DNA from: a virus
Virus record (IMG/VR): IMGVR_UViG_3300020419_000059
Span: 1 to 30,566 of that record
Strand: one strand, 5' to 3'
DNA length: 30,566 bases
Shown here: one piece after another, positions 1,162 to 20,019 of the stretch
Layout of the letters: each line of letters opens with the position of its first letter
How positions within the stretch are numbered: position 1 is the first letter of the stretch
Notes under the pieces: generated by a model
Told to the model about the DNA's origin: nothing
The model's input: only the letters and a program-made list of their open reading frames with translations
Database searches by the model: none
Position numbers and translations under genes: made by a program

Positions 1162-1366
1162 ACTATTAGAAATGCAAAATAAAGTTGAAGCGTTAGGAAG
1201 TGCTTTAACAAGGGTAATTAATGAAATGACTAATCTTAAAGATTTAAGTATTGGTACAATGGAATTAGTAAAAAAATTACCTGATTACGATAAGGCTTTA
1301 GAAGAATTAAAAGAACAATATAAAAAGAAAAAAGATGAGTCTATTCAAACAAAGGATACCGTATAA
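1148..1366 (+). CDS. Small coiled-coil hypothetical protein (72 aa)
   Basis: A Lys/Glu-rich protein with heptad-like spacing of Leu, Met and Val (LLEMQNKVEALGSALTRVI; YDKALEELKEQYKKKKDE), suggesting one or two coiled-coil helices. The ATG at 1148 is chosen over the TTG at 1145. It overlaps the gene upstream by 14 bases and nrdB by 32 bases, so its translation may be coupled to the reductase. No enzyme motif is present. Function unknown; a small regulatory or scaffold partner is possible but unsupported. Confidence 0.6.
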   Translation: MKESKLLEMQNKVEALGSALTRVINEMTNLKDLSIGTMELVKKLPDYDKALEELKEQYKKKKDESIQTKDTV

Positions 1367-2303
1367 GCCATTTGAATATCCTGAATATTACACAGATGGT
1401 TGGCTGAAACAAGCACAAGCATTTTGGTTGCATACAGAAATACCTATGCAAGGTGATATTAAAGATTGGAATGAAAAATTAACTTCAGAAGAAAAAAACT
1501 TAGTTGGTAACATCCTTTTAGGATTTGCACAAACTGAATGTGCTGTATCAGATTATTGGACACAGAAAGTAGTTAGGTGGTTTCCAAAACACGAAATACA
1601 ACAAATGGCCATGATGTTTGGTTCACAAGAAACAATACACGCAGTTGCTTATTCTTATTTAAATGAAACATTAGGATTAGAAAACTTTGAAGCATTTTTA
1701 CATGAACCTGCTACAGCCGCTAGATTTGATAATCTTGTTAGTTATAGTGGTACTGACCCTGTAGGTATTGGTAAATCTTTAGCTGTATTCAGTGCATTTG
1801 CTGAAGGTGTGTCTTTGTATTCAGCATTTGCTGTGCTTTATAGTTTTCAATTACGTAATTTACTTAAAGGTATAGGACAACAAATGAAATGGTCTGTAAG
1901 AGATGAATCGTTACATTCTAAAATGGGTTGTCAATTATTTAGGCATATGTGCCAAGAAACTAAAGGATTACAAAATGATGCTCATGAACACATTATTAAA
2001 GCGGCCTCAACAATGCTTGAAGCAGAAGAAAGATATATTGATAAAATGTTTGAACAAGGAGATATTGAAAACCTCAAAGCTTACGACCTCAAACAATTTA
2101 TTAGAAAAAGGCTTAACGAAAAAATTGTTGAGCTCGGTTACAGCAACCAACGGGGGCACTTTGAATTTGACGAAATCGCAGCAAGCAATCTTGACTGGTT
2201 CTACCATCTTACCGGGGGGCACACTCATACTGATTTTTTTGCTGTTAGGCCTACTGATTACTCGAAGGCTAACGAAGGAGAAGATTTTGAAGATATTTGG
2301 TAG
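1335..2303 (+). CDS. nrdB: Ribonucleotide reductase class I, small (radical) subunit
   Basis: A 322-residue ferritin-like di-metal protein that generates the tyrosyl radical used by NrdA to reduce ribonucleotides to deoxyribonucleotides for phage DNA synthesis. Metal ligands are visible as Glu68 (QTECAVSDYW), Glu99 and His102 (QETIHAVAYSYL), Glu157 (FAEGVS), Glu191 and His194 (RDESLH); the radical Tyr is Tyr106. The 31-residue gap from Glu68 to Glu99 and the 34-residue gap from Glu157 to Glu191 equal the E. coli spacings (84-115, 204-238). The first ligand is Glu where E. coli has Asp84. The C-terminal tail ends GEDFEDIW, the flexible tail that docks onto the large subunit. Base use changes sharply near 2077-2230. 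nrdA follows three small genes later, so the two are probably co-transcribed. Confidence 0.96.
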   Translation: MSLFKQRIPYKPFEYPEYYTDGWLKQAQAFWLHTEIPMQGDIKDWNEKLTSEEKNLVGNILLGFAQTECAVSDYWTQKVVRWFPKHEIQQMAMMFGSQETIHAVAYSYLNETLGLENFEAFLHEPATAARFDNLVSYSGTDPVGIGKSLAVFSAFAEGVSLYSAFAVLYSFQLRNLLKGIGQQMKWSVRDESLHSKMGCQLFRHMCQETKGLQNDAHEHIIKAASTMLEAEERYIDKMFEQGDIENLKAYDLKQFIRKRLNEKIVELGYSNQRGHFEFDEIAASNLDWFYHLTGGHTHTDFFAVRPTDYSKANEGEDFEDIW

Positions 2304-2305
2304 TT

Positions 2306-2458
2306 ATGAAAAAAATAAGTAAAAATAAATTTAGACAGTGGAAATTAAAGCAACCTTTATGGCTGCAACTTTTAATTGAAATACTTATTTTTATATTTAT
2401 ATTTTGGGTATTAAATTTAATATTTAATCCCTTTGGATACAGAATAACACCGTGGTAA
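2306..2458 (+). CDS. Small single-pass membrane protein (50 aa)
   Basis: A short gene two bases after the nrdB stop. A basic N-terminus (MKKISKNKFRQWKLKQ) is followed by a hydrophobic helix of about 20 residues (roughly 21-42, rich in Ile, Leu and Phe) and a short C-terminal tail ending GYRITPW. By the positive-inside rule the N-terminus should lie in the cytoplasm. No family is recognised. Its length and single helix would suit a membrane-targeted accessory or holin-like protein, but no lysis gene is seen nearby and I do not claim that role. Confidence 0.6.
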   Translation: MKKISKNKFRQWKLKQPLWLQLLIEILIFIFIFWVLNLIFNPFGYRITPW

Positions 2459-2468
2459 AAAAAATAAA

Positions 2469-2795
2469 ATGAAAAAATTATTATTATTATTATTATTTAG
2501 TGCAGCATCATATGCTCAAAGCAATGAAATATATGGACTATGGTATAATGCTGAAGGAGAGTTTGTTAAGATATTTGAAAATGATACTTTTAATAGATTT
2601 ACTGTAGAGGTTGGTACAAGAAAAAAAATAACCGTATCAACGGGAACAATAGAATATGTTAATAAAGAATTACGTATTGTAAGAAAAGATACAGTAGATA
2701 GCTACAACCTTTGTTATTATATAGGTAATGAAACTATGGTTGTATGCAGACCAAGATCGCAACAAGCATGGTTATGGCAGAAGATAAGCAACTAA
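2469..2795 (+). CDS. Secreted small protein with Sec signal peptide
   Basis: A 108-residue protein beginning with a textbook signal peptide: Lys2-Lys3, six consecutive Leu, and a cleavage site at SYA|Q (Ala16-Gln17), the pattern common in Flavobacteriia exported proteins. There is no lipobox Cys, so the mature protein should be soluble in the periplasm. The mature part begins NEIYGLWYNAEGEFVKIF and alternates in a beta-strand pattern, like small lipocalin-like or META-like barrels that open with a G-x-W motif; this comparison is weak. It lies between nrdB and nrdA, and its last 22 bases overlap the next gene. An exported product in a nucleotide-metabolism operon is odd; a moron or superinfection-exclusion role is speculation. 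Confidence 0.75.
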   Translation: MKKLLLLLLFSAASYAQSNEIYGLWYNAEGEFVKIFENDTFNRFTVEVGTRKKITVSTGTIEYVNKELRIVRKDTVDSYNLCYYIGNETMVVCRPRSQQAWLWQKISN

Positions 2796-3145
2796 AAAGA
2801 ATTTGCAATGTTTGCAAAAAAAATAAAGAAAACAAACACTTTAAACATGAAGGTAAAAAAACATGTGCTAGGTGTGAGTTCCGTTGGAAAACATCTTTTA
2901 TAAGGTTATTAGTACACGATAGAAGATTAACAGCCAAAGAAAGATTATCAAATAGACTAGGATATATGGGTTCTGCTTTTATAATGTTATCACCTTACAT
3001 ATTAAACTATGGCAATATAGGTGCTATAACATATATACTTGGAGGTTTGTTATTAACTCCTCAAGTATGGATTGCAAAACAATGGAACTTAGTTATAATA
3101 AATATTAACTTAGTAGTAGGTTATATAATGTATATATTATTATAG
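2774..3145 (+). CDS. Zinc-ribbon membrane protein, unknown function
   Basis: The N-terminal part carries two CxxC knuckles (CNVC and CARC, Cys11/14 and Cys31/34), a likely zinc ribbon of the kind seen in small nucleic-acid-binding phage proteins. The second half is hydrophobic, with about three membrane helices (from GYMGSAFIMLSPYIL through GAITYILGGLLL to the C-terminal NLVVGYIMYILL). The start at 2774 (MAEDKQLK) is preferred because longer starts at 2744 and 2768 increase overlap with the upstream gene. The last helices faintly recall PnuC-like small transport proteins (KQWNLVIININLVVGY), which would fit a nucleotide-metabolism operon, but the protein is too short to be a full transporter. 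Function unknown. Confidence 0.65.
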   Translation: MAEDKQLKRICNVCKKNKENKHFKHEGKKTCARCEFRWKTSFIRLLVHDRRLTAKERLSNRLGYMGSAFIMLSPYILNYGNIGAITYILGGLLLTPQVWIAKQWNLVIININLVVGYIMYILL

Positions 3146-3146
3146 T

Positions 3147-4889
3147 ATGTGGAATAATGAATGGGTAAAAGGTCAAGACTATCCTGCATGGGGGGATACT
3201 GATGTTTATAAAAAAACTATATCAGGAGGTTATCTTGTTAATGGAGAATCTCCTCGCGATGCTTATACTAGAGTTGCTAAGACTGTAGCTAAAAGACTTT
3301 ATAAACCTGAAATGGCTGATAAGTTTTTTGACTATATATGGAAAGGATGGCTTTGCTTAGCTTCGCCTGTGCTGTCTAATACAGGAACCGATAGAGGTTT
3401 ACCAATAAGTTGTTTTGGTATTGATGTAGGAGATAGTATAATGGAAATAGGTAATAAGAATTTAGAAATGATGTTGCTCGCAAAACACGGTGGGGGAGTT
3501 GGCATTGGAGTTAATATGATTAGACCTGCCGGATCTAAAATTACAGGTAATGGAACATCAGACGGCGTTGTCCCTTTTTGCAAAATCTACGACTCAACTA
3601 TACTCGCAACCAATCAAGGTTCAGTTAGAAGAGGAGCTGCTAGCGTTAATATCAATATTGAACACAATGACTTCCTCGAATGGTTGGAAATTAGAGAACC
3701 CAAAGGTGATGTCAACAGGCAATCTCTTAACTTACATCAGTGTGCTGTCGTTGGCGATAAGTTTATGCGAAAACTTGAACAAGGAAATCCAGATGCAAGG
3801 AATAAGTGGTCCAAACTCATCCAAAAACGTAAAGCAACTGGAGAACCATATATCTTGTTTAAAGGAAATACAAACAAAAACAATCCAGAAGCATATAAGA
3901 AAAATAGTTTAAAGGTACATATGACTAACATATGTAGTGAAATTGTATTACATACAGATGAGTCACACAGTTTTGTTTGCTGTTTGTCATCTGTAAATCT
4001 AGATAAATATAATGAATGGAAGAATACGAATTTAATATACGACGCGACCTGGTTCCTGGACGGTGTGCTCGAAGAATTTATTCAGAGGGCAAAGAATATG
4101 AAGGGATTCGAATGCTCTGTTCGCAGTGCGGAGAAGGGCAGGGCTCTTGGACTTGGTGTCCTTGGGTGGCACAGCCTGTTGCAAAAGAGCGGAATATCTT
4201 TCGAAGGTTTATTAGCACAATTCAAAACGCGAGAAATATTTTCAAAAATAAAAATTGAAACTGAACGTGCTTCAAGAGCTCTTGCAGAAACATATGGTGA
4301 GCCCTTGTGGTGTGTGGGTACTGGTATGCGTAATACTCATTTAAGAGCAGTAGCACCTACCGTATCTAATAGTAAGTTAGCGGGTAATACGTCAGCTGGT
4401 ATTGAACCATGGGCTGCAAATGTATTTACAGAACAATCAGCTAAGGGGACATTTATAAGAAAAAATAATGAACTTAAAAAAGCACTTAGAAAAATTGGTA
4501 TTGACTATAAAGAAACTTGGGACAAAATTTTGGAAGATGGTGGATCCGTTCAAGGACTTAAAGAACTCGATGGATGGTTTTACGATGAAAGAGGACGATT
4601 AAACCAAGAAGAAGGAGAACCGATAAAAAATGTATTTAAAACTTTTAAAGAAATAAATCAACTTGAACTTGTAAGGCAAGCCGGTATACGGCAGGATTAC
4701 ATAGATCAATCTGTTTCACTTAACCTGGCATTTCCATCCGAGGCAACCCCCAGATGGATTAATCAGGTGCATGTTGAAGCATGGAAGCGCGGAATCAAAA
4801 CTCTTTATTATATGAGAACTGAATCCGTGCTGAGGGGAGATATAGCCGCAGCAGCTATGGATCCCAACTGTTTAAGCTGCGATGGTTAA
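3147..4889 (+). CDS. nrdA: Ribonucleotide reductase class I, large (catalytic) subunit
   Basis: A 580-residue catalytic subunit that reduces ribonucleoside diphosphates (triphosphates cannot be excluded) with the radical supplied by NrdB. Key residues are present: Cys89 (PISCFG, E. coli Cys225); Asn261, Cys263 and Glu265 (NICSEI, the Asn437/Cys439/Glu441 set); Cys278 or Cys279 (VCCLSSVNL, Cys462); Tyr554-Tyr555 (TLYYMRT, the radical-transfer pair); and a C-terminal CLSC (Cys575, Cys578) for re-reduction by thioredoxin or glutaredoxin. The protein starts almost at the catalytic barrel, so the N-terminal ATP-cone is missing, as in many phage enzymes; feedback inhibition by dATP is probably lost. 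Three higher-GC patches lie inside it (about 3560-3800, 4026-4205, 4675-4886). It starts two bases after the preceding stop. Confidence 0.97.
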   Translation: MWNNEWVKGQDYPAWGDTDVYKKTISGGYLVNGESPRDAYTRVAKTVAKRLYKPEMADKFFDYIWKGWLCLASPVLSNTGTDRGLPISCFGIDVGDSIMEIGNKNLEMMLLAKHGGGVGIGVNMIRPAGSKITGNGTSDGVVPFCKIYDSTILATNQGSVRRGAASVNINIEHNDFLEWLEIREPKGDVNRQSLNLHQCAVVGDKFMRKLEQGNPDARNKWSKLIQKRKATGEPYILFKGNTNKNNPEAYKKNSLKVHMTNICSEIVLHTDESHSFVCCLSSVNLDKYNEWKNTNLIYDATWFLDGVLEEFIQRAKNMKGFECSVRSAEKGRALGLGVLGWHSLLQKSGISFEGLLAQFKTREIFSKIKIETERASRALAETYGEPLWCVGTGMRNTHLRAVAPTVSNSKLAGNTSAGIEPWAANVFTEQSAKGTFIRKNNELKKALRKIGIDYKETWDKILEDGGSVQGLKELDGWFYDERGRLNQEEGEPIKNVFKTFKEINQLELVRQAGIRQDYIDQSVSLNLAFPSEATPRWINQVHVEAWKRGIKTLYYMRTESVLRGDIAAAAMDPNCLSCDG

Positions 4890-6069: not shown

Positions 6070-9000
6070 TTAATTAACTTGTCTTTCTGCTTTATTTGCC
6101 GCTTCTTCCCACGGTAATTTAGAATGTCCTTCTATATATTTTTTATTATTATATTGTATTTTTCCCCCAACTCTAGGATATTTACTGCCTTTCCAATAAA
6201 CATAATTATCATCATAATTAAGCTTACCAGATTTCATATCTCTCATATGTTGTTTTTCATGAGCAATAGTTCTTTTCTTTTCTACCGGTGATAAGTCTTT
6301 ATCAACCTCTATAGTGCCATCGTTGTTAGCTCTACCCATAACACCTTTGCCTAATTGTTTTGTTTCAATTTTTTTAGCAGGACTAAATTTTTTAGGTTTA
6401 AATTTTTTAAAATTTACTTTAGATTCTTTAATATTTTTTTCAACATCTAATTGATAAGGACTCCAACCTAATGCTAAAAATATATTTTGCCAAGCATCAT
6501 TATGTTCTGCACTTATAGCTTTTAAGTTTTCTACTTTTTTAAATGCTCTATCTAAAGGAATATTAGTCAAGCCGGATACATAATTTGCTTTTGCAAAATA
6601 TTGATAAAACGGGTCTTCTTTATATTGTCTCCAATTTTCAAATCTTTGAGCTTCAATTATATCACCTATTTTTTTGCTTACAGGTGGAGATATACTTAAC
6701 CCTTTTTGTATTAATCTAAGTGCAGGATCTGCAACTCTTTCCCCAGCTTCTCTTCTTTTTTGTTGGCTATAATACTCTTGGCCTAAGTTTTTAAGTGCAG
6801 CAACTACAGCACCACTATAGCCCATACCTCTTAAAAATCCATCAGCTATTGTATTTGCAAAAAATCCAATTTTCTTTTCATCTTTTTCGTCGTCTTCGTT
6901 ATCTGACAAAAGTAATGAAAACAATGCAGATTGTAAACCTGAAAATATTATGTTTTGAGCTGCACCATAGTATAATATTTTAGATGCATTTGTTCTCCAA
7001 TCGCCTCTTCTATTTATCAAATCAAGTGTAGCTTTTTTAGTTAGTCTAGCATATTGTAATGGTGTATTAGCAAATGCTAATATTAATCTACCAATGTCTG
7101 ACGACTGTTGCCTAGATATTCTGTCTGGCCTAGAAGATTGTTGTGTTTCTTCAGCAACCTCTTGAAATTCAAGCATTGTTTGTTCTTCAGCCTGTGCAGG
7201 ATCAACACCTTGATTTACTAATTGATCTATTCTATTTCTATACCAGGAAGCACCACCAAAAGATATTGCAAAGCTATCTCCCCATTGTGTTGGTTTAAAA
7301 CCTAATTCAAGTAATTTTTTATTAGCTCGTAAAAACCAATTGCCTGGTTGTGAATCAGCTATATCAGCTGTGTTTAATTCAATTTTTTGTCCACCTCTAC
7401 GATCTGTAAGAAAACTAGAATTCCATAATTTAAAAAAGTCTTCGGTAAATTGTTTTCTATTACCCATTGCTCTTGCCATTGCTAATGGATTATTATGTGT
7501 AAAGTTCATAAAGTTAACTATAGATAACTGCTGTAGTACTGCAGATCTTACATTAACTGCCATAACATTAGCAACAGACTGGTTTATCCAATTCATAGCT
7601 GAATTAAATTCTTTATCTTTGCCTTGCTTTCTGTTTACACCTGTTTCCATTCTAGTTAATACATTAGATAACGCATCAGTAAAATCTTCACCATGTAATT
7701 GTTTTATAACTTTCATATTTTCTTTTGAAAATATTTGTTCTTTATTATTTAAGAACTCAGCTAAAAACTCTTTTCTTTGTTGAGTTTGATTTGCAATATT
7801 TAAATCTAAATCAATATTACCACCTTCCCAATCATTATATATTTCAGTATAACCTTTTTCTGTTTTAGTTATTTTAGAAAGATCTTCTGCAAAAGCAAGT
7901 AAATCATTATTATTAACAACAGTTGCTATTAAGGCTTCTTGATCAGATTCTGATATACCAAGGTCTTGATCCCCTCGTGAAAATAAATATGTACGAACAG
8001 CATCTTCATTAGTATATTGACCGTCAAGTATACTTTGTTTTAATAAAGCTTTATTTTTATATCGTTTTTTTAATTCTTTATAATCTTTACCTAAAGCAAC
8101 TTTAGCGGCTTCATATGCATTTATACCTTTAGCAAAAGGTGTCATTATGTTTTCTTCAAAAAACTTCATTTGTTTTTCGCCAGCTTTGCCTGACTTATAA
8201 AATGTGTATAGCAAACCTGCAAAATCATCAGCCCCTGGAGGCACATATATATTTAGTTTTCCAATTAAAGAACTTTTAGTTGGTCCTTTACTTTTAAATA
8301 TATTAAGTGCATCTGTACCAATTGTAGAAGTTTTTTCTTTTTGTTCTTTTACTTTATTGTCTTTTTTTGTTTTAAGATCAGATATTATTTTATCTGTAGA
8401 TTGATCTTTTGTTTTTTCTCCGAGCTTAGCAAGATTGTTTTCATTTTCTTTTCTAACTTTTTCTTGTGCTTCTCTAACTCCCTTTTCAGATAATATAGCT
8501 AATTGCTTTTCAGCAGGCACTTTTCGATCTGCTACCTCATAAGTTGATTGTTCAACAAAATCTGACCATTCTTGCTCAGAAACAAAGCTTTTTACATATT
8601 TATAACCTTCGCTTACAGCTTCAGCTAATGCTTTACCTCCTTTATAAGCTAATTTAACAGTTCTAAGACCACCAATTAATAAACTAGTAGGAATAGCCGC
8701 AATATTAGTTTGGAGCGTTCCTGGACTTCCTGTGAGGTTTTGTAATTTTGCTATAACTCTATCTATAAATAGTTCAACATTATCACCTGTTTTTTCTTTT
8801 AAACCTTTTTGCTGTGTACTTTTTATATCAGGAGTTTGTTTACCTTCTACAAATAAATTATAATCTTTTAATAAACTTTGATTTGTTTTTATATTTATAA
8901 AATTATTTAAATCTAAATTTTTATATCGATCTAAATAAGTATCATTTAGAGCCCAGCCTTCTCTCATACTTCTTTGAAGTCCCTCTTGTATTAATTGGTT

Positions 9001-12000
9001 TGAAGATTTTTTAGACATTGCAACCATTTTATAATTGTTCATTATAAGAGGGTACATAGTGTTAAAATCTACATTAGAAGCAGCACCTGCAAATAAAGCA
9101 CGATAAGCAGCAGAAGCAACCATAGCATGCTCAAACTCTATATTGTTGCCCATACCTTTTTCATATGCTACAAGTTGTGCTCCTAATTTCCACCAATTAT
9201 TACTTTCATTACCTACAGGTTTCATAAAAGCTAAAACTTCACCTAATCTATTTTTATCTGCTTTTACATATTCATATAATCTTTTAGAAATTTGTCTATG
9301 TATCTTAGAATTTGCTTCATTAATTTTATTTAATTCACCCGTTTTAATTAAATTTTCTATTTGTTTTTCGTTTTTAAATAATTGTTTAGGTTGTTTTAAA
9401 TATTCATAATTTAATACTTCATCAAAATTATTTCCAAAATCTTGCAAAGAATTAATTATTTTTTTACCTTCATTAGTAGCCACAGCTGTAGCTCTATTAT
9501 TGCCAATAAAGTCTTTACTTAAACTATTTCTTTCAACAATATTAGGCCCAGAATCTGCTATTGCTTCAATTGCTTCTTTAGGAAACAATTTAACTATATT
9601 AGTTAGTTGACTTATAAGTTCAGATTCATTTCCCTTTCCTGGTATTTTAGGTAAACCAAATTTTTTTAATAATGCTACAGCACTTTTTTCAGATACTTCT
9701 GAAAAAGATTTATTTTGTGATTGTATATCATTAGCTTCCTCTATTATAGATTTAGGACTAATAGGGTCTAAAGCTTTTTGAGCTTCAACAAATGATTGTC
9801 TTAAAGTAGCATCGGTTTTTAATAAATTTATTGCTTCATTAGCACCTAATGATACAGCTAAAGTTTCAGCTAAACGTATTTTACGATTTGCCTTTGCTGA
9901 TCTATTTTCTGTACCATCTGGTTTTTTAGGAATATTAACTCCTTTAAAATAGTTAACAAACGCTTCTTTACCTACTGATTTAAACTGAACTTTTTCTTTG
10001 TTTTTTAAAAATCCAGCCTCTTCAAAAGGGTTTTTATTTGTATTAACATCTCTAGCCATGACCATGGCTTCAGGCCTTAATAAATCGTATAAGGCTTCTG
10101 CGTTGTTTTCTAAAGTATTTGTAAAAGTGGCGTCGTCTTTTGTGTCTCTACCAAAAAATTTTGTTACTTGTTTATATAATTTATCTTTTAAAGTTTTAGA
10201 AATATCAGTAGCAAATTTTAGCGCATCGCCTCTTTCTTTTGTAGTCATTAATGCAAGCCTAGCAGCATTACTTATTTCAGAAGTTAAAGCTTCAGGCAAT
10301 TTTATTTGATTTCCTATATCAATAGCACTTTGATCTATTGTGTCTTGATTATCAATAACTTCTTCAATTGCTGTTTGTTCTTGTTCAATTGCAGCAGTTT
10401 CTGTAATATCAACTTGATCCTGTTGAGATACACCTAAATCTTTAGCTATTCTATTAGCTCTTAAATTTAATCTATTAGTTAAAAAGGTACCTAAATCTTG
10501 TTTACTTGCATCAAATTCTTGTGTAACCAACACCGATGCATCTGTAACTAAATCACTTTTAAATGAATCTCTCGTTATGGTTTTCTTTTTATCTTCAGGT
10601 ATACGATCATATATTCTTTTAGTAATTGATTCAGTTAATCCACCTATAGCTTGACCAAATTCAGTTTGTACAAAATCAAAAGTTTCTTTACCTTGTGGAG
10701 TTTTACTTAAACCTTCAATTATCATTTTATCGGTGTCACCATCGTATTTTTCTAATAATGCATTAACATCATTCTTAGGAACTTTACCTTGGTTAGGATT
10801 CATCATAAGAGTAAAAATCATTACTCTTTGATTTTCTAATTCGTCCTTTTGTTTTTGTAATTCTTGCTTAGCTAGATCTGGTGTTTCTTTTCTTTTTATA
10901 GAAGAATCTAATTGATCTATTTCACTTGTTGTTTGAGCAAGATCTTGTAAATCTTTATCTGATAATTCATCAAATTGATTTGAAACAGTTTCTCTTGATT
11001 TTCTTAAAGATTCCTGCTTTTGTTTAATTTGTTTATTTAGAGCTGCTTTAGTTTCAATATTATCTACTAATTCTATATCAGATTGTAATTCAATTATTTC
11101 TTTATATAAAGCTCTTTGTTTATCAGATATTTGTTGTGGTTGTAATATGTTTTCAGCAAGATCTCTAAAGTTTTGGCTTTTAGCCTCTTCATCTGTAGGA
11201 TTTTCTATTTTATTTTTACCTCTTCTAAAACTAGTTAAAGAACTTCCAACACCGCCCATTACTCCACCTATAACAGCTGTTTTAAAAAGCCTTCGTGGTA
11301 AATTATTAAGAGCCTCTTCATCATCTAAAATAGCATAATCAGCTATAAGAGATTCTATAGCTTCAGCAGTAGCTTCAGAAGCTGCTTCACCTGCAATATC
11401 TTTTGCAACATTAAATGTTATATTAAAAGGAGATTGATTTTTAGGTGCTTTACTTAATCCTTTTCCAGCAGCTGCATAAGCTCTACCTAATCTATAAGTA
11501 AAAAGTTCTGTAGCAAACTCTCCCCCGCCTGTAATTGTTGAAGCAGCCCATTTTTGTGCAAGAGTAGCATCAGGTTTAGTTTCCATTATTTCAGCATACT
11601 TATTGCCTAAAGCAGATACACCTTGAGCCGCTAAACCTGGAAGTCCGAAGACAATACTAGAAACAAAGCTAGGTACAGCCCCAGATAATTCTTCACCAAA
11701 TTGTTCTGCTCCTTCTGCATATCTACCTTCTCTAAATAAATCAACATAGTCTTTTTCTAAACCCGTTTTTTCATCAATACCAAAATCAGGACTAGTAAAT
11801 TCAGAAAATTCTTGAATAGTATCAACAGCATCATCTATTGTTTTTCCTGTTACTTTTTGTGCAATACCTAAACCAGGAATAGCAAAACCAATTAATTTAT
11901 TAGCTAAAGCCTCTTTTTCTTCTAAACTTTTTTCTTGTCCTGTTATACTATAAAAAGTATCTATAATACTTTTAGCAAGATTTGTAGTAACACCTTGAAA

Positions 12001-12225
12001 TAATCCTGCACCAGTACTTGCGGCTTTACTTAAAAAATTAGCAGCTGGAGCAGCAAAAAGACCAAGGCCATTAGGTAAACTGTTTAGTGTATTTCTAAAG
12101 GCTATTTTTTTAGCTTGTTCTTCTTGTCTTTCTCTTTCAGCTTTTTCTTCTTCTGTTTCAAGAGGAACTAATGGTTCTTGTATTAAACTTTCGTAAGTAT
12201 ATAAATTTTTGTTATGTCCTGGCAT
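6070..12225 (-). CDS. Giant internal virion / ejection protein with C-terminal HExxH motif
   Basis: A 2051-residue protein, the largest in the window. Residues 50-340 are rich in Gly, Ala and hydrophobic residues (e.g. NGLGLFAAPAANFLSK, VFGLPGLAAQGVSAL, VIGGVMGGVGSS), fitting membrane-active helices. Residues 365-468 are a Gln/Glu/Lys coiled coil. Around 1696-1773, the motifs SSRPDR, LILAFANTPLQY and a hydrophobic helix (NIIFSGLQSALFSLLLS) recall the large polyvalent protein domains of phages. The C-terminus holds HEKQH (1989-1993) followed by LPWEEAANKAE, a zinc metallopeptidase-like H-E-x-x-H...E arrangement. It follows the 387- and 494-residue proteins, the order of T7 gp14-gp15-gp16, so it probably is ejected to form the DNA conduit across the envelope. 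T7 gp16 carries a lytic transglycosylase; none is evident here. Confidence 0.82.
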   Translation of the reverse strand: MPGHNKNLYTYESLIQEPLVPLETEEEKAERERQEEQAKKIAFRNTLNSLPNGLGLFAAPAANFLSKAASTGAGLFQGVTTNLAKSIIDTFYSITGQEKSLEEKEALANKLIGFAIPGLGIAQKVTGKTIDDAVDTIQEFSEFTSPDFGIDEKTGLEKDYVDLFREGRYAEGAEQFGEELSGAVPSFVSSIVFGLPGLAAQGVSALGNKYAEIMETKPDATLAQKWAASTITGGGEFATELFTYRLGRAYAAAGKGLSKAPKNQSPFNITFNVAKDIAGEAASEATAEAIESLIADYAILDDEEALNNLPRRLFKTAVIGGVMGGVGSSLTSFRRGKNKIENPTDEEAKSQNFRDLAENILQPQQISDKQRALYKEIIELQSDIELVDNIETKAALNKQIKQKQESLRKSRETVSNQFDELSDKDLQDLAQTTSEIDQLDSSIKRKETPDLAKQELQKQKDELENQRVMIFTLMMNPNQGKVPKNDVNALLEKYDGDTDKMIIEGLSKTPQGKETFDFVQTEFGQAIGGLTESITKRIYDRIPEDKKKTITRDSFKSDLVTDASVLVTQEFDASKQDLGTFLTNRLNLRANRIAKDLGVSQQDQVDITETAAIEQEQTAIEEVIDNQDTIDQSAIDIGNQIKLPEALTSEISNAARLALMTTKERGDALKFATDISKTLKDKLYKQVTKFFGRDTKDDATFTNTLENNAEALYDLLRPEAMVMARDVNTNKNPFEEAGFLKNKEKVQFKSVGKEAFVNYFKGVNIPKKPDGTENRSAKANRKIRLAETLAVSLGANEAINLLKTDATLRQSFVEAQKALDPISPKSIIEEANDIQSQNKSFSEVSEKSAVALLKKFGLPKIPGKGNESELISQLTNIVKLFPKEAIEAIADSGPNIVERNSLSKDFIGNNRATAVATNEGKKIINSLQDFGNNFDEVLNYEYLKQPKQLFKNEKQIENLIKTGELNKINEANSKIHRQISKRLYEYVKADKNRLGEVLAFMKPVGNESNNWWKLGAQLVAYEKGMGNNIEFEHAMVASAAYRALFAGAASNVDFNTMYPLIMNNYKMVAMSKKSSNQLIQEGLQRSMREGWALNDTYLDRYKNLDLNNFINIKTNQSLLKDYNLFVEGKQTPDIKSTQQKGLKEKTGDNVELFIDRVIAKLQNLTGSPGTLQTNIAAIPTSLLIGGLRTVKLAYKGGKALAEAVSEGYKYVKSFVSEQEWSDFVEQSTYEVADRKVPAEKQLAILSEKGVREAQEKVRKENENNLAKLGEKTKDQSTDKIISDLKTKKDNKVKEQKEKTSTIGTDALNIFKSKGPTKSSLIGKLNIYVPPGADDFAGLLYTFYKSGKAGEKQMKFFEENIMTPFAKGINAYEAAKVALGKDYKELKKRYKNKALLKQSILDGQYTNEDAVRTYLFSRGDQDLGISESDQEALIATVVNNNDLLAFAEDLSKITKTEKGYTEIYNDWEGGNIDLDLNIANQTQQRKEFLAEFLNNKEQIFSKENMKVIKQLHGEDFTDALSNVLTRMETGVNRKQGKDKEFNSAMNWINQSVANVMAVNVRSAVLQQLSIVNFMNFTHNNPLAMARAMGNRKQFTEDFFKLWNSSFLTDRRGGQKIELNTADIADSQPGNWFLRANKKLLELGFKPTQWGDSFAISFGGASWYRNRIDQLVNQGVDPAQAEEQTMLEFQEVAEETQQSSRPDRISRQQSSDIGRLILAFANTPLQYARLTKKATLDLINRRGDWRTNASKILYYGAAQNIIFSGLQSALFSLLLSDNEDDEKDEKKIGFFANTIADGFLRGMGYSGAVVAALKNLGQEYYSQQKRREAGERVADPALRLIQKGLSISPPVSKKIGDIIEAQRFENWRQYKEDPFYQYFAKANYVSGLTNIPLDRAFKKVENLKAISAEHNDAWQNIFLALGWSPYQLDVEKNIKESKVNFKKFKPKKFSPAKKIETKQLGKGVMGRANNDGTIEVDKDLSPVEKKRTIAHEKQHMRDMKSGKLNYDDNYVYWKGSKYPRVGGKIQYNNKKYIEGHSKLPWEEAANKAERQVN

Positions 12226-12227
12226 AA

Positions 12228-13712
12228 TTATATATTAAAAAATTCTCTTACCTTTTTTATTGGTCCAGCTTTTTTAATGGGTGCATAGTTAAAACTAGTC
12301 ATACCAGCAGGAACGCCATACATTCGTACAGCCATAACGTTTGCTAGCTCATTAGGATTATTCATAACACTTTCTGGAATTAATGCTAACTCCTCTCCAC
12401 TTTTATTTACTAAATAAAATTTACCTTCAACTTCCATAATAGAATTTCCCAAAGGAGCATTTAAATTCCATGAAGATAAATTTGTTTTAGTAGGAGCCGG
12501 TAATTGATTTATAAATTGTAAATTAATATTTCTATCTCTTTCAGTAAGAGATCTAGCTTGATTCATCCTTGCTGCATTTGCTCTGTCCGCTGCGGCTATT
12601 TTAGCAATTTGTAAATTGTATTCTTTTTGTTTCCAATGGGCAATTTGTTTATCAACCGTTTGATCCATTGTTCTTGCAATCCATAGCTTTTCCATTTCAA
12701 ATTCTAATTTGTTTGCAAAATTTTCACCATTCATTTCTTCTAATATACCCGGAATATTTTCAATTTCTGCAGCAGTAAAATCTTCTTTGCTTGGTATAAA
12801 CTGCCCACTATTAGACATCTCCTCCATTTCGTCGTAAGTAAAACCGCCATAATCAACAGCTAATGATTTTAAACCGTCCATTTTATTTTCATTAACAAAA
12901 TTGTCAAAACTACTTCTTACGGTTTTAGAAAATTCTGTATTGTTTAAATCAGCGGGAATACTAGACATATTAAATTGTCCTGTAGGTTGCCCTGTTATTG
13001 GATCAACAATTTCTTGTTCTGTAGGCGTGCCTAAAGCATCAGCAATAGGCTTTGTAAGAGATTCAAAGCTATCAACCTTTTTAATAGGCCTTGGCATTTT
13101 ACTTAATTGATTTGCAGGTATGCTGAATGGTTTATTTTCTTTTGTTGTGCCTGTAAACACAACAACACCGTTTTCATCAACTTCTAATTTTCCTCTGCCT
13201 TCAATACCTGCTTGAAAAAAATCTTCGTTTTCTTGATCATTAGCACCGGAAAGAACACCTTGCGCGTTGTCAGTAGCATAAGTGGTAAAGTTTGTTTGTA
13301 GAGCTTCAAGCATGGGTTTTATTTGCCCAACTTGATTTTGTAATGTACCGTATAATCTACCAAATTCAGCACTAGAAATTCTATTGTTTTCAAGATCAGT
13401 AACTAATTGAGAACCTCTATCAGCTAAACCTCTGCTCACTGTTGCAGCATAATCATCTATAGCAGAAAAACCACTGTCTGAAGGAATCATTAATCCTTTA
13501 GAATACTCTGCTTGCATAAAGCCAAAAGATGCTCTTCTTCTTTTGTCTAATTCATTTTGTCTTCTTCTTTCTCTACCAACTTTAATACTTTCGTCAATAT
13601 CATCAGCAACAGCAGAGTAATCAAATGGGCGACTAGGTGCAAGGTTATTAAAACCCAAGCTTTGGGCAATTATACCTTGTCTTTTTAAAGGGCTATTTTT
13701 AGTATTTTTCAT
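12228..13712 (-). CDS. Probable internal virion (ejection) protein
   Basis: A 494-residue soluble protein, mostly helical and charged, with an Arg-rich segment near the N-terminus (VGRERRRQNELDKRRRASFG) and helical runs such as AHWKQKEYNLQIAKIAAADR. No catalytic motif or signal peptide is visible. It sits two bases upstream of the giant ejection-type protein and four bases downstream of the hendecad-repeat protein, which is the position of T7 gp15 in the three-protein ejectosome; that role is inferred from order. Its leader contains AAAGGAT, one of the few SD-like sites in the late operon. Sequence family not recognised. Confidence 0.72.
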   Translation of the reverse strand: MKNTKNSPLKRQGIIAQSLGFNNLAPSRPFDYSAVADDIDESIKVGRERRRQNELDKRRRASFGFMQAEYSKGLMIPSDSGFSAIDDYAATVSRGLADRGSQLVTDLENNRISSAEFGRLYGTLQNQVGQIKPMLEALQTNFTTYATDNAQGVLSGANDQENEDFFQAGIEGRGKLEVDENGVVVFTGTTKENKPFSIPANQLSKMPRPIKKVDSFESLTKPIADALGTPTEQEIVDPITGQPTGQFNMSSIPADLNNTEFSKTVRSSFDNFVNENKMDGLKSLAVDYGGFTYDEMEEMSNSGQFIPSKEDFTAAEIENIPGILEEMNGENFANKLEFEMEKLWIARTMDQTVDKQIAHWKQKEYNLQIAKIAAADRANAARMNQARSLTERDRNINLQFINQLPAPTKTNLSSWNLNAPLGNSIMEVEGKFYLVNKSGEELALIPESVMNNPNELANVMAVRMYGVPAGMTSFNYAPIKKAGPIKKVREFFNI

Positions 13713-13716
13713 AAAT

Positions 13717-14880
13717 TTATCCTTTTCCCATTAAACCTCCAATTTCACTTCCTAAAGGATTCATTAAAGCACCTATTCCTCCTAATAAAGCACCTGTTGC
13801 TTGTTGTCTAGCTTGATCTGCAGCCCCTTTTCTTTGTGTTGAAAGCGCTAATATATCTGCTTTTTGTCCATACTGTTGTTGTTGTCCGGCTTGAGCAAGT
13901 TGTGCTCTATTTATATTAAACGAATTTGCTTGTTGCTGATTTTGTCTAGCAAATTGGTTTTGAGCAGCAGCCCCAAATTGAGCAGCTGCATTTTGTGCAT
14001 CCATATTAGCTAATCCAAATTTATTAGCAGCATCAAATTGGCTCATTGCAAATTGATTACCTTGACCTACATTAAATTGGGCCATTTGATTTGCTTGACC
14101 AAATGCATCTCTAGCAAATTGGTTTTGAGCTTGTGCACCAAATCTGGCAGCTTGATTAGCTGCGTCAGCACCAAACTCAGCGGCTCTATTTTGTGCTTGT
14201 GCACTAAATTGCCTTGCTTGATTATCTTGGCCAACATTAAACTGTTGTTGTCCTAAATCAAACTGTGAGGCAGTATTTTCTTGAGCAAGCTGTGATCTTT
14301 GTAATTCAGATTCGCCTTGTGCTCTAAGTGCTTCATTTGCTTTAACTTGTCTGTCTATATCAGCAGATATTCCTGCTTTTGATTTTGCAGCGGCTGCAGC
14401 TAAAGCTGTAGCACCACCAGCACCTGTACCAGCCTGAGCAGCAAGATCTTGCGATGCGGCTAATGCTTGATCAGCTTCTTGCGCGGCTAAATCAGAACCT
14501 GCAGTTGATACTTGAAGATTACGCATAGTATTTGTAAGACCTGTATCTGCTCCTCTCATAAGGCCATCAACGCTTGTTTGAGCAGCACTATATCCTTGTG
14601 CATCATAACCTTGTGAATCATAACCTTGTGCTTGACCTAATTCAGCCATACCTGCTTGCCCAGCTTCCCCAAGTGTTCCTGCTTGGCCTAAAGCAGCATC
14701 ATAACCTTGTGCTGTAGAAGGATCTAATCCTGTAAATTGTGCTTCTTCACCAAAATTTCTAGTATTAAAATCAAAAATTCCTTGTCTGCTTTTTTGATAT
14801 TCTGCATTTGCAGCTCTTTGTTCGCGTCTTCTTTTCCTACCGCCGAATAACGATCCAACTGCACCTATAATTTTTCCCAT
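13717..14880 (-). CDS. Ala/Gln-rich virion protein with 11-residue repeats (probable ejection protein)
   Basis: A 387-residue protein. The N-terminus (MGKIIGAVGSLFGGRKRRRE) is a hydrophobic Gly-rich helix followed by a basic patch, and the C-terminus (ATGALLGGIGALMNPLG) is a second Gly-rich hydrophobic segment, so both ends could meet membrane. Between them are a QGYDxQGYD motif (85-97), an Ala-rich stretch (150-166) and ten consecutive 11-residue repeats (220-329) with Asn at every eleventh place. Such a long, uninterrupted Ala/Gln helix would suit a conduit or a coat around it. Its place before the 494- and 2051-residue proteins parallels T7 gp14. It starts within a TAATG junction with the GNAT-like gene. 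Virion role likely; exact role inferred. Confidence 0.78.
   Translation of the reverse strand: MGKIIGAVGSLFGGRKRRREQRAANAEYQKSRQGIFDFNTRNFGEEAQFTGLDPSTAQGYDAALGQAGTLGEAGQAGMAELGQAQGYDSQGYDAQGYSAAQTSVDGLMRGADTGLTNTMRNLQVSTAGSDLAAQEADQALAASQDLAAQAGTGAGGATALAAAAAKSKAGISADIDRQVKANEALRAQGESELQRSQLAQENTASQFDLGQQQFNVGQDNQARQFSAQAQNRAAEFGADAANQAARFGAQAQNQFARDAFGQANQMAQFNVGQGNQFAMSQFDAANKFGLANMDAQNAAAQFGAAAQNQFARQNQQQANSFNINRAQLAQAGQQQQYGQKADILALSTQRKGAADQARQQATGALLGGIGALMNPLGSEIGGLMGKG
13894..14223 (-). repeat. Ten tandem 33-bp units encoding an 11-residue (hendecad) repeat
   Basis: Within the 387-residue protein, Asn falls at residues 220, 231, 242, 253, 264, 275, 286, 297, 308 and 319, exactly 11 apart. 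Example units are NQARQFSAQAQ, NRAAEFGADAA, NQAARFGAQAQ and NAAAQFGAAAQ; a consensus is N-Q-x-A-x-F-x-A-x-A-x. An additional 11-residue unit (202-212) and a 7-residue unit (213-219) precede them. Both 7 and 11 fit alpha-helix periodicity. At DNA level the copies are diverged, so the pattern is held by protein-level selection rather than recent duplication. Confidence 0.9.
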
Positions 14881-15317
14881 TAGTATTTTAGTATTAATTC
14901 ATATGACGGTGTTTTATCAACCGTATATTCTGCATTTTTATATTTATCTAATAATATTCCAGGTTTTGCCCATGCAAAAGAATATTTATATCCTAATTCT
15001 TCAGCAAAATCTGTTGTAAAATCTAATAAAAGTTGCAATGCATCACTTCTGTCAGTATCTTTATACGATTTATCGCTAACTACTACAGCTGGAATTGCAG
15101 TTTTACTATTTGTCATCCATAGCCACATAGCAGCAATAGGATCTTTTCCTTTGCAAACCATAAAGCCACCTAAACCTTCTCTTTTTTTTTCTTCATTGCC
15201 TATTTGAAAAGCGCCTGGAAGAAAATCACGCGGTATAGCTTCTTGTTTATAAGCTTCCCACCATGATGGTAAAAAATCCCAATCGGATTCTTGTAATTTT
15301 CGTACTTGTAATTGCAT
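14880..15317 (-). CDS. GNAT acetyltransferase-like protein
   Basis: A 145-residue protein with the alpha/beta layout of GNAT N-acetyltransferases: an N-terminal strand-helix (VRKLQESDWDFLPSWWEAYK), a central strand (GGFMVCKGKDPIAAMWLWMT), a motif-A-like strand and helix (AVVVSDKSYKDTDRSDALQL then LLLDFTTDFAEELG), and a final strand pair. The acetyl-CoA pyrophosphate loop (Q/R-x-x-G-x-G/A) is not clearly kept (TDRSDALQ instead), so catalysis is uncertain. Similar GNAT-fold proteins occur in tail gene clusters of marine phages as I recall, where the substrate is unknown. It lies between a small virion protein and the ejection proteins and shares TAATG with the next gene. Confidence 0.72.
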   Translation of the reverse strand: MQLQVRKLQESDWDFLPSWWEAYKQEAIPRDFLPGAFQIGNEEKKREGLGGFMVCKGKDPIAAMWLWMTNSKTAIPAVVVSDKSYKDTDRSDALQLLLDFTTDFAEELGYKYSFAWAKPGILLDKYKNAEYTVDKTPSYELILKY

Positions 15318-15322
15318 ATAAT

Positions 15323-15562
15323 TTAATTTGATGAATAAACTGATTCAGAATTAATTGCATATAATTCTTTTTGTGTTTGAGCATTAACACCTGTAACTTT
15401 TAATCTTACCTTCATAAAAACACCTTTTACGCCTGATATTAACTTTGTAGCATTAGCTGAAATTGCACCAGCATTTGCTGTATAAGTTGTTTGTTGTGAA
15501 ACTATAGGTGTAAAATATTTACCTTCTTTTTTTTGAAACGGAAATGTTATTATTGTACTCAT
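15323..15562 (-). CDS. Small virion-module protein (79 aa)
   Basis: A short beta-rich protein (begins MSTIITFPFQKKEGKYFTPI; middle GVKGVFMKVRLKVTGV). Threonine, valine and glycine content resembles its structural neighbours, and it has no signal peptide or membrane helix. It starts at the TAATG overlap with the stop of the 1485-residue tail gene, so its translation is likely coupled and it is probably made with virion proteins. A tail-tip or minor decoration protein is plausible; family not recognised. Confidence 0.65.
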   Translation of the reverse strand: MSTIITFPFQKKEGKYFTPIVSQQTTYTANAGAISANATKLISGVKGVFMKVRLKVTGVNAQTQKELYAINSESVYSSN

Positions 15563-18500
15563 TATGCACTTTGTGTTATATTTATTGTATGTGAACTTAC
15601 ACCTGTAACTCTTGAATTTTGTTTTGATATAACAACCGTACCTGTTCTAGAGCTTCCAGTTGTATTATCAGCTACATTAATTGTAAAAGGATAATTACCA
15701 CCATATATGGTAATATCATCTGGATCAATTAATAAAACAGCACTAGATGTAGGATCAACTGCTGTTCCTTGTGTTGTAGCTGCTGCTAAATATATCCAAT
15801 CTGCACCATCTCCAGTATCTGTTGGCTCTACTCTTACAGCAATATTAGCTTTTTCACCGGCTACATCTCCTATAACTAAATTATTATTACCAGTTGCTGC
15901 AAATGTATGTGTTCCCGTAATAGTACCCATAGCCGCTGTTACTTCACCTGAACCTGTTATAGTAGCAGTAGCAGTCGTATTTTCATATATTTTAGGTAAT
16001 ACAATTGATGCTTGATAATAATCTTGTGTGTATGCGCTTGTAAAAGTTGTTATTTCTGTTATAGTAGTGTCTTCTGTATTATAAGCAACAGCATAAGAAC
16101 TAGGTAACATTACTTTTGTTGTGCCTGTAACATCTTTTCTAAGTGTTGCAGTACGTTGATTTTCAGAAACATATGGACTTATTGTATAAGCATTACCAAC
16201 TGAGTTTCCTGAGGGTACTGTTAATGTACCTACAGAAGGAGTTGCCCAAGTTAAAGTATATAATGTAGTACCACTTCCTGAAAATGTCATGTTTTCATTA
16301 GTAGCAGCAGGAGGCATTGTAACCGGTACATTATAAGTTATTTGGTTTGTTTGCCTTGTATAAGGTAAAGGTGTTGTAATAATATTACCGCCCATACCAC
16401 TATGGCTACTACAATAATAATATAATGGGCTAGAAGTTGTGCTAGTAACAACTATTTGTGTTTGTGCACCCGCAGTACCGGGAGTGCCTGTAACGGTAAC
16501 ACCAGCTGTAAATGGGTCTGCAGGGGAATTATTAGGATTTTTTGAAAACCTTAAAGGATGAGGTGCACCACCTGTTCCTGTTCCCCCGTTTGTTACGTCC
16601 GATTGATCAAATATATAAGTTTTACCTATAGTAAGGGCAATATTATCTTGCCTTATACCATCTAATGTATATCTATTAACATTACCAGTATAATTTATAA
16701 CTTTAACAGGTATTGTTTCTGTACCTGTTATTGCACTAGTATTTAAAGAATTTAATGATCCAACTCCTATGGTAATATTATAAGGATTTATAAAATGTGT
16801 ATTTGTAGGGGCAACTATTATATCTTGTGACGTTGCACCCGCCGCTAATTCAACAAGAGTTGGACTTACAGCCGCATCTGAAACAGAATCACCTACACTT
16901 ATACTAAGAAGTGCTACAGTAAATGCTAATGAAGCACCTGTACCACCAACAGCTAATTCAATAGTTTGATTTGATGTGCCAACAGTATAGCTTATATTAA
17001 ATACCAGCTTACCATCAACAATAGCAGTTGGGTTTGTTATGTTAACAGTTTGAGAACCTGAATATGTTAAAGTAACATCTGACGCTGCATTAAATTTAAA
17101 ATCAGCATTTTTTGGTTCTACAAATACGGCCCATGTAATTGTTTCTCCTTGTTTAGCTCTGGCTACTCTTTCTCCTGTTATTAAAGTATTTGCGCCTACA
17201 GTTGTATTAGCTCTTAAAATTTGTAATGAAATATCAAAACAATTTGCATTAGTAGGTACTACACCAATATCTGATAAATCAGTTCTTAAAAAATCTAATT
17301 CCCAACCAGATGTTCCTTCATAACTTATATTATTAAATGTTTTAACAAGTGAAGGCCCATCATTTAATATAGGCTCTATATAAGAATCAGCAGAAGCAGC
17401 ACCATAAAAACTATTTCTATTTACATCTTCTGAGTTATGCTTATATAATTTACCTGAATTAAATGTATAATATTTATTATTTAATGTTAAGCCACTTTCT
17501 TGTTTAAAAGATTTAAAGCTTGGCCAACCTTTGGCATTTTCATCAAATGAAATAGTAAAGTACCCATCTGATGCAGTCGCTATATTAGTATCTGTTTCGC
17601 TATCATAGCAATCCCCTATAATAGTTAAATTATATAATCCATGATATTCATCATAAGAGCCTATAACTTCTTTAGAATGAGCTAATGCATCTCTAAAAAA
17701 GTCACTCATACCTGAATTTGAAATCTGTACAATACCATTTTGAGATAATCTTAATACACAACCCCTATTTTTATCTGTAAAATATCTTGAAAAACCAAAA
17801 GCCGCAAAAGATTGTGGGTCTTTAGAAATTCCAAAATCACCCGCATAAGGTGCTATAGTTCCTAAAAATTGAGTATTACTAGTTACAGGCACTGCACCGC
17901 CTTCAGCAGAATATATAAAGTCTTTATTTATAGGTGATCTAGATAATTTATCTTCTTGAAAAACAACTATCTGAGTGTCATCAGCATAAAGTTTTTGAAC
18001 AGAGCCATCTTGAGGATCTAATGATATAGTTAATCCACCTTCTGCTTCATTAAATTGATTTATATAATTAACATTAGTTCTTGAATTAAATAAACCACTT
18101 GAATGTATGAGTGTATTAAACCTTCTTTCTTCGGCAAAATTTTCTTTCACAACATAAGCTCTAACACCTACATCAAAAGCTTTTTCATTAAAACCAGCTC
18201 TTAACCTATTAATTTCTATATGTGTGCCAGCTGTAAAGTTTAATAAATAACAATTAAAAAATCTAATATCAATAGTTGCCCCTGCGTTATTTAAAACTGA
18301 TATTAAACCACCTGTAGATGTTTCAAAGAAAATATCTAAATCTGATTCTACTGGCTCTGTTTCATATACTGAAACGCCAGATGTTATAGCAGATCCTGAG
18401 TCTGTAACAGTAGGTACATTAGCTGTACCTGCAGGGTTGTTAATTGATTGTATTTTTGTTAAACTAGAAGTTGTTTGATTAGCCCCATTTAATACTTTAG

Positions 18501-20019
18501 GATAAACAGAAACATTACAAGGAGATATTGAAGCGCTTGTACTAGGAGGTATTACAGCTGTTTGATCTCTTGGTATTTTGTTTATGCTATCTCCAAGCCT
18601 TGCAATTACATTACCTCCAGTAAGAGCAGAAATCCAATTATAATATTCTTGTTCCCTTTGCTTTACAACTATTTTGTATGAATAAGCCCAATCAAGTGCT
18701 TTTAAAGAAGCTACAGCCGCGGCAGAAAAAGATATTCTTAAAGCATTAAATACACTAGTACTATTAGATTCGCCAGTTGCGGCATCTACAAATACTGTAT
18801 CATTACCTGTTGATGATAATATTACAGGTGATTGTCTTCCAAATTTATCAGCTAATACAATACCAACTTGATATGTTCTTCTAGACTTAACAGACATAGA
18901 TGTATCTAATGTAGCATATCTAGCAGAAGTTTCTCCTGTTCTTGTAACACTAAATGATATATCTGGTATATCAAAGTTTTGTAAAAAATTACCATATACA
19001 AGTCTCCCTCCGGCTAACTCTTGTGATTTAGCTTTTTTGGGTACTGCATCAGAAACCCTTGTTAATTGGTCACCAGGTAATGTTTTAAAAGGATCTTGTG
19101 ATTTATAAAAAAAGTTTACAGATGCCTCCGTAGTAATTGTTTTTTCTTCAACAACATATAAAGTTGATGAACCTGTTTCCTTATATATTAATTCTACACC
19201 AGTAATACCATAACCTGTTGGCGTTGATACTGCTAACTGCACAGATTTAACTGCATTTACAAATGTTTCAATTTCTCCAAAATCTGATATTGAACTTGTA
19301 TTAATTGTATCAGTATTCCCTAATCTTGAAAAGCATATAGGTGTAAAAGGCGCTAATACACTATATTCTCCATCTTCAAATTGATAACGATATGAAAATC
19401 TTACAAGTTTATTTTCTAAAAAATTAGATGTAATTACCGCACCAGTTTCATCTGTATTTGATAATGCTAATATTTCAGCAGCTTCATATGGAGAAAATTT
19501 AGCTACAGACATAAGATTATCAACACCTGCACTAATACTATAATGGCCTTCTTCATTTCTTGCAGTATCTACATTTATTTTTCTTGGAGGATTTCTATCG
19601 TCTGTAAAAAATAATAATGTATCAACAAGATTAACACCTGTAATAGGAAATTCTGTATGAAAATTTAATGTATTTTCATTTACTAAAACTATAGATTTAT
19701 TAGCTTTTTGATCATATTCTATAATTTGATGATTTTTATTAGAGCTGTTTGAATGATCATAACTATCATTATTAGTAATAAAATAATATATTTTTTCGTT
19801 ACCGTTATCTCTTAAACTACCAATAACTTTAGCCCCACTTATAGATGTAGATACTATTTCTTTATTACCTAAAAGATTTTCAACAGCGCCCATATCAGAA
19901 CCTTCTGATTTACTTACGTTTATATTTAAAGCTTCACGATATTCACCGGGCTGGACGAGTCTATCGTCTTTATCTCGATTCATTCGGCTTGCATTGAATA
20001 GCCTTTTTATTTCTGGCAT
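15562..20019 (-). CDS. Large tail protein (stabilisation/beta-propeller type) with cupredoxin-like and BACON-like domains
   Basis: A 1485-residue beta-rich protein. The N-terminal part begins RLFNASRMNRDKDDRLVQPG and contains short WD-like strand groups (e.g. TGVNLVDTLLFFTDDRNPPR), resembling the propeller-like tail stabilisation proteins of podoviruses, including crAss-like phages; this is remembered similarity. The C-terminal third is Thr/Ser/Gly-rich Ig-like sequence. Residues about 1122-1213 form a cupredoxin-like domain: TYIFDQSD, then HPLRFS (His1154) and YYYCSSHSGMGG (Cys1203, His1206, Met1209). The last 85 or so residues (…SSRTGTVVIS…HTINITQSA) look like a BACON domain. The likely role is a tail hub or adsorption protein displaying sugar-binding modules. 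It lies directly after the two neck proteins, as expected. Confidence 0.82.
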   Translation of the reverse strand: MPEIKRLFNASRMNRDKDDRLVQPGEYREALNINVSKSEGSDMGAVENLLGNKEIVSTSISGAKVIGSLRDNGNEKIYYFITNNDSYDHSNSSNKNHQIIEYDQKANKSIVLVNENTLNFHTEFPITGVNLVDTLLFFTDDRNPPRKINVDTARNEEGHYSISAGVDNLMSVAKFSPYEAAEILALSNTDETGAVITSNFLENKLVRFSYRYQFEDGEYSVLAPFTPICFSRLGNTDTINTSSISDFGEIETFVNAVKSVQLAVSTPTGYGITGVELIYKETGSSTLYVVEEKTITTEASVNFFYKSQDPFKTLPGDQLTRVSDAVPKKAKSQELAGGRLVYGNFLQNFDIPDISFSVTRTGETSARYATLDTSMSVKSRRTYQVGIVLADKFGRQSPVILSSTGNDTVFVDAATGESNSTSVFNALRISFSAAAVASLKALDWAYSYKIVVKQREQEYYNWISALTGGNVIARLGDSINKIPRDQTAVIPPSTSASISPCNVSVYPKVLNGANQTTSSLTKIQSINNPAGTANVPTVTDSGSAITSGVSVYETEPVESDLDIFFETSTGGLISVLNNAGATIDIRFFNCYLLNFTAGTHIEINRLRAGFNEKAFDVGVRAYVVKENFAEERRFNTLIHSSGLFNSRTNVNYINQFNEAEGGLTISLDPQDGSVQKLYADDTQIVVFQEDKLSRSPINKDFIYSAEGGAVPVTSNTQFLGTIAPYAGDFGISKDPQSFAAFGFSRYFTDKNRGCVLRLSQNGIVQISNSGMSDFFRDALAHSKEVIGSYDEYHGLYNLTIIGDCYDSETDTNIATASDGYFTISFDENAKGWPSFKSFKQESGLTLNNKYYTFNSGKLYKHNSEDVNRNSFYGAASADSYIEPILNDGPSLVKTFNNISYEGTSGWELDFLRTDLSDIGVVPTNANCFDISLQILRANTTVGANTLITGERVARAKQGETITWAVFVEPKNADFKFNAASDVTLTYSGSQTVNITNPTAIVDGKLVFNISYTVGTSNQTIELAVGGTGASLAFTVALLSISVGDSVSDAAVSPTLVELAAGATSQDIIVAPTNTHFINPYNITIGVGSLNSLNTSAITGTETIPVKVINYTGNVNRYTLDGIRQDNIALTIGKTYIFDQSDVTNGGTGTGGAPHPLRFSKNPNNSPADPFTAGVTVTGTPGTAGAQTQIVVTSTTSSPLYYYCSSHSGMGGNIITTPLPYTRQTNQITYNVPVTMPPAATNENMTFSGSGTTLYTLTWATPSVGTLTVPSGNSVGNAYTISPYVSENQRTATLRKDVTGTTKVMLPSSYAVAYNTEDTTITEITTFTSAYTQDYYQASIVLPKIYENTTATATITGSGEVTAAMGTITGTHTFAATGNNNLVIGDVAGEKANIAVRVEPTDTGDGADWIYLAAATTQGTAVDPTSSAVLLIDPDDITIYGGNYPFTINVADNTTGSSRTGTVVISKQNSRVTGVSSHTINITQSA

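Follow-up and report, generated by a model that had tools for sequence, protein, structure and literature searches.

The window analysed here (the whole stretch of 30,566 nucleotides, IMG/VR virus record IMGVR_UViG_3300020419_000059) is that of a marine, Bacteroidota-type podovirus, with a capsid protein nearest to those of Flavobacterium, Cellulophaga and Maribacter phages; of five distant matches among genome contigs, three fall in Bacteroidota MAGs. Plus-strand open reading frames (ORFs) at 1335-4889 encode what we take, from their translations, to be the small and large subunits of ribonucleotide reductase. The minus strand carries a block of five genes (tail nozzle, 145-aa, array-bearing, 494-aa and 2051-aa proteins) arranged as T7 genes 12-16 are, with the following features:

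15562..20019, minus strand: tail nozzle (muzzle) protein, matching Pfam crAss_MUZ_C above cut-off.
14880..15317, minus strand: small T7 gene 13-slot protein of 145 aa; the relatives that occupy this slot are annotated as acetyltransferase-like.
13717..14880, minus strand: array-bearing protein of 387 aa in the gp14 slot, a probable ejection protein (ORF; about 60 distinct homologues, with the slot kept in relatives).
14590..14631, minus strand: short pentapeptide repeats of QGYDA type that precede the core and differ in copy number among relatives (TRF, alignment).
14281..14559, minus strand: conserved core, residues 108-200, consisting of helix, Gly-Gly turn and helix (HHalign, alignments, AlphaFold2).
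14413..14418, minus strand: Gly155-Gly156, the predicted hairpin turn and first anchor for length measurement (alignment, AlphaFold2).
13894..14223, minus strand: ten exact 11-residue units, residues 220-329, with Asn at position 1 of each (repeat and periodicity analysis).
13720..13797, minus strand: Gly-rich hydrophobic C-terminal end, residues 362-387, followed in some relatives by a Peptidase_S74-like module.
12228..13712, minus strand: T7 gene 15-slot protein of 494 aa (ORF, slot order).
6070..12225, minus strand: T7 gene 16-slot giant protein of 2051 aa (ORF, slot order).

The array-bearing gene occupies the position of T7 gp14, after the nozzle and gp13-slot genes and before the gp15- and gp16-slot genes. 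Most relatives whose flanks are long enough to show it share this arrangement, in which the family protein stands between a protein mostly of 130-165 aa and one mostly of 370-580 aa, the latter followed by a giant protein. The C-terminus of the nozzle protein weakly matches BACON. In the giant gp16-slot protein no Pfam domain was found; near its C-terminus lies an AHEKQH (HExxH-like) motif, with a match to phrog_16532 at the same place.

The core is homologous (HHalign probability 91, E 1e-6) to virion proteins of ∼200 aa from Flavobacterium and Cellulophaga phages, a group in which the phi40:1 homologue (gp099) is annotated as a structural/virion protein from MS/MS. The Pfam profile PF24072 (T7_gp14) is matched by 11 of 36 family members (best E 2.1e-5); one relative scores 17.4 bits, under the cut-off of 27. 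The window protein itself yielded no match to this profile at the curated cut-off, no direct match in Pfam, PHROGs or NCBIfam, no tblastn match among 50,697 phage records, and no PDB chain by sequence at E <= 10; HHalign comparison of the core directly with T7 gp14 and its relatives was not significant. Complete relatives within the window clade measure 345-517 aa (window protein, 387 aa) vs. 181-240 aa for T7 gp14-type proteins, described as the smallest and most size-constant of the ejection proteins (PMC8954989). The window protein is best described as gp14-like through its slot and this chain of homology, and not as a member of PF24072. The original prediction of an ejection protein is upheld by the slot in the window and its relatives, by the core homology to virion proteins, and by the T7_gp14 matches within the family; the protein probably helps to bring viral DNA into the cell.

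Within its C-terminal half, Asn recurs at residues 220, 231, 242, 253, 264, 275, 286, 297, 308 and 319 (ORF 14880..13717, minus strand), at just the coordinates first proposed (14223..13894). In residues 196-345, identity at a lag of 11 stands far above composition shuffles (z = 5.7, with 0 of 5000 shuffles as high), as does identity at a lag of 22 (z = 4.5), and the chain of ten equally spaced Asn residues exceeds anything in 20,000 shuffles, which reached seven at most when all spacings of 3 to 39 were considered. The 11-residue repeat is thereby confirmed as genuine and exact. Residues 204-340 are 49% Gln and Ala, 12% Asn and 10% Phe. The array flanks are Gly-rich and hydrophobic, as had been claimed; the further claim that Phe usually follows Asn by five residues was overstated, since this holds in five of the ten units and the other five have Phe at +2. 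At the DNA level the units have diverged (identity of 0.48 at a lag of 33 nt), and TRF detected no 33-nt tandem array in the window.

Helix lengths across the family were measured without alignment, between the Gly-Gly turn and the motif R-x4-[LIM]-[DN]-[RY] downstream of it in the array-less groups, and as the equivalent quantity derived from the terminal Gly in the window clade. The anchors were picked after the sequences had been seen and were applied uniformly; they could not be placed in several divergent members. Among array-less marine relatives the helix spans 45, 56, 67 or 78 residues (1, 1, 11 and 67 sequences, respectively), placing 80 of 81 on a ladder of 11, with a single exception at 74. 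Fifteen of 19 Bacteroidota phage proteins gave 45 residues by automatic motif search; for the other four, at 39 (three) and 47 (one), a neighbouring Arg had been taken, and the motif was found at 45 when the sequences were read. In the window clade the helix measures 158, 169, 180 or 191 residues in 35 sequences, the window protein having 180, and one clade within it lies at 165/176, less by four residues, or roughly one helical turn; a value of 187 for L023 reflects a mis-anchored C-terminus. The array-less and window-clade ladders are mutually offset by 3 modulo 11, again near one turn. With another pair of anchors, used earlier, the values were 127/138/149, 134/145 and 131/142/153, plus 159 in two sequences that have a different downstream motif.

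Helix length thus steps almost only by 11. A tree of the constant parts of the window clade needs ∼11 separate length changes, one of them the shift by four. Periodicity at lag 11 is also found in the array-less group (z = 4.7); in T7 gp14 itself it is not convincing. Because the array-less relatives share both the 11-residue steps and the lag-11 periodicity, we conclude, on the strength of these sequence comparisons, that the whole family has a second helix of hendecad type and that the Asn array is its amplified form. Slippage by 33 nt within a repetitive array would, on its own, also yield steps of 11 residues.

For the window protein, AlphaFold2 predicts helices at residues 108-148, 153-265 and 276-372, with pLDDT of ∼37-66 in the array and a gap at 266-275; for an array-less relative it predicts a single helix at 115-242, with pLDDT of ∼71-85 over most of its length. 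The two-helix hairpin is modelled with moderate confidence in the relative and low confidence in the window protein. A Foldseek search with the array-less model returned no significant match; several of the weak viral matches are ‘internal virion’ or ‘DNA transfer’ proteins. The notion of one continuous, in-register helix is supported by the length steps and by the relative's model; in the window model the array is helical, with low scores and an interruption. On an 11-residue wheel, Asn, Gln and Arg (positions 0, 1 and 4) and Gly/Gln (position 8) form a polar side, and Ala and Phe fall on two faces (positions 2, 5, 9 and 3, 7), a pattern compatible with packing of the helix on two sides, though no proof of it. 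A crude scan of how many helices a barrel might hold had a flat, uninformative optimum at ∼7-12.

In T7, the nozzle is prolonged at the outer membrane by a hexamer of ejected gp14, each copy a two-helix hairpin (PMC11784390). The reading we favor, to which we give an even chance of being correct, is that the window protein is a gp14-type internal (ejection) protein whose hendecad-lengthened second helix packs in register and forms a multi-helix channel after ejection. Lengthening of the second core helix by about ten Asn/Gln/Ala/Phe hendecads would produce one very long, straight helix, each length step of 11 residues (three turns) adding ∼16.5 Å. If this helix packs along its full length against its own copies or a partner, its faces must stay in register. 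Once ejected, several copies might together make up a long multi-helix channel, carrying the tail nozzle onward across the outer envelope and turning Asn, Gln and Arg side chains to DNA or water, by analogy with the phiX174 H tube. Given the analogy to T7 gp14 and the register constraint, we propose, as the most likely arrangement, that the lengthened helices build a longer, multi-helix stretch of a T7-like conduit; counted against this are the missing direct T7_gp14 and Foldseek matches, the low array pLDDT, and a hydrophobic moment not above shuffles. A bolder version, possible but doubtful in our judgment, would have the gp14-type pore protein of a marine podovirus group carry a hendecad tube segment of several to 13 units (∼16.5 Å per unit, ∼165 Å for ten), long enough on its own to span much of the periplasm. 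Such a segment would be a dsDNA-phage counterpart, arrived at by convergence, of the phiX174 H tube, its length evolving in three-turn steps.

The array might instead be a low-complexity repeat of scant structural meaning, generated by replication slippage, as its richness in Ala, Gln and Asn and the feasibility of expanding 33-nt units by slippage would allow. Yet units with identical amino acids differ by synonymous changes, dN/dS is 0.03-0.25 in the informative pairs tested, and orthologous units are 56% identical vs. 37% for paralogous ones; the units are therefore old and maintained, and the array is under purifying selection. With recent slippage as sole cause disfavoured on these counts, and with array-less relatives also stepping by 11 residues, we regard this explanation as the least probable of all. 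A membrane-surface amphipathic helix, like those of apolipoproteins or alpha-synuclein, would share the period of 11 residues and could accommodate the Phe/Ala positions, but the hydrophobic moment of the array lies within the shuffle range, no strong single hydrophobic face is present, Ala and Phe occupy two faces, and charges are few. A clearly amphipathic membrane-surface helix, a class mentioned in the original prediction, is thus not supported, and wheel and moment together speak against such a helix, which we hold to be very unlikely. No better placed is a ruler, in which unit number would set the length of the trans-envelope conduit: the number does change in whole units, as in tape-measure proteins (PMC3271669), but array-less Bacteroidota phages do without the array, and the gp15-slot (tunnel-slot) protein offers no compensation, remaining at ∼500 aa with 0, 3 or ∼12 extra helix units. 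Since its size does not follow helix length, the length-setting role suggested at the outset is unsupported, and we consider it highly improbable.

The register constraint would fit any bundle, including one at work inside the capsid, where the long helix could form an in-register rod or bundle tying together the portal barrel, core proteins and packaged DNA, with no channel after ejection. Mature T7 gp14 does lie between the portal and gp15, with its C-terminal part adjoining DNA (PMC11784390), and the array surface is rich in amides; T7 gp14 is nevertheless ejected and makes the nozzle extension (PMC11784390, PMC8954989), and a purely internal rod seems to us unlikely, though well worth keeping in view. 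A further alternative takes its cue from the C-termini. Short Peptidase_S74-like modules (SDRRLKxxI...) are patchily distributed at the ends of ejection-slot proteins, occurring in L006, L007, L008, L013, L053, L070, L077, L089, L106, L111, L114, L205, L219 and L248. S74 domains have been described chiefly in trimeric fibres, so that these modules, together with a weak Peptidase_S74 match, could point to trimeric assembly, and the protein could be, in place of a gp14-like pore, a stalk or fibre that forms as a trimeric coiled coil with the aid of a cleavable chaperone of S74 type. Against this, the module is lacking in the window protein and in L012, which is otherwise near-identical to L006, and occurs with and without the array (L205 being an array-less core protein); gene slot and core homology indicate ejection proteins, and the PHROG ‘DNA ejection protein’ matches S74-bearing members. 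A stalk is accordingly rated improbable, and the gp14-type conduit remains the preferred reading.

Asn hendecad arrays also occur in a second lineage, represented by L024 (7095-8570), which has 11 exact Asn units, and by L025-L034. In L027, the array protein lies in a P22 gp7/gp14-like slot, its neighbours being a protein of 487 aa and another that bears a transglycosylase-type domain. These P22 gp7-like slot proteins (L024, L025-L034) resemble the window protein in having an array of the same kind, but have another N-terminal core and show no demonstrated homology to it beyond the array.

The length-setting helix had been put forward as an idea not seen described; its elements have precedents in phiX174 H, whose tube is built with hendecads and has a lumen lined by Asn, Gln and Arg (amide/guanidinium) side chains (PMC7354561), and in tape-measure proteins with a variable number of 11-aa repeats (PMC3271669). 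The likeness to phiX174 H, itself a phage DNA-delivery protein, extends to long helices and Gln/Asn-rich 11-residue units (PMC7354561), and the window array falls within the Asn/Gln hendecad pattern; H, however, is a decamer with hendecads followed by heptads, from an ssDNA phage, and the window protein has no detectable homology to it (PDB search, E <= 10). Siphovirus tape-measure proteins share variation in 11-aa unit number, aromatic markers, and greater similarity between orthologous than between paralogous units (PMC3271669), but the window protein belongs to a podovirus, to another slot and to another family, and its invariant marker is Asn rather than Trp/Phe. The crAss001 cargo protein C1 (gp45), for which a T7 gp14-like channel and ejection as the first protein have been proposed (PMC10172136), is comparable in its proposed channel role, and the window nozzle matches crAss_MUZ_C. 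T7 gp14 resembles the window protein in slot, short hydrophobic N-terminus and predicted hairpin with a Gly-rich turn, and array-less relatives weakly match its Pfam profile; the window protein differs in its size (387 aa vs. 181-240), in a second helix enlarged by ∼12 hendecads, and in having no direct profile match. Hendecads in phage DNA delivery and variation in 11-aa units are thus known, and what is new is a gp14-type ejection protein whose helix lengthens in 11-residue steps, having grown to about twice the usual size by the addition of whole units to one helix. The step rule provides sequence evidence for a straight helix in register with its partners over its length, and the relatives, from array-less proteins to the window clade, offer a natural helix-length series for asking how the envelope DNA conduit is built.
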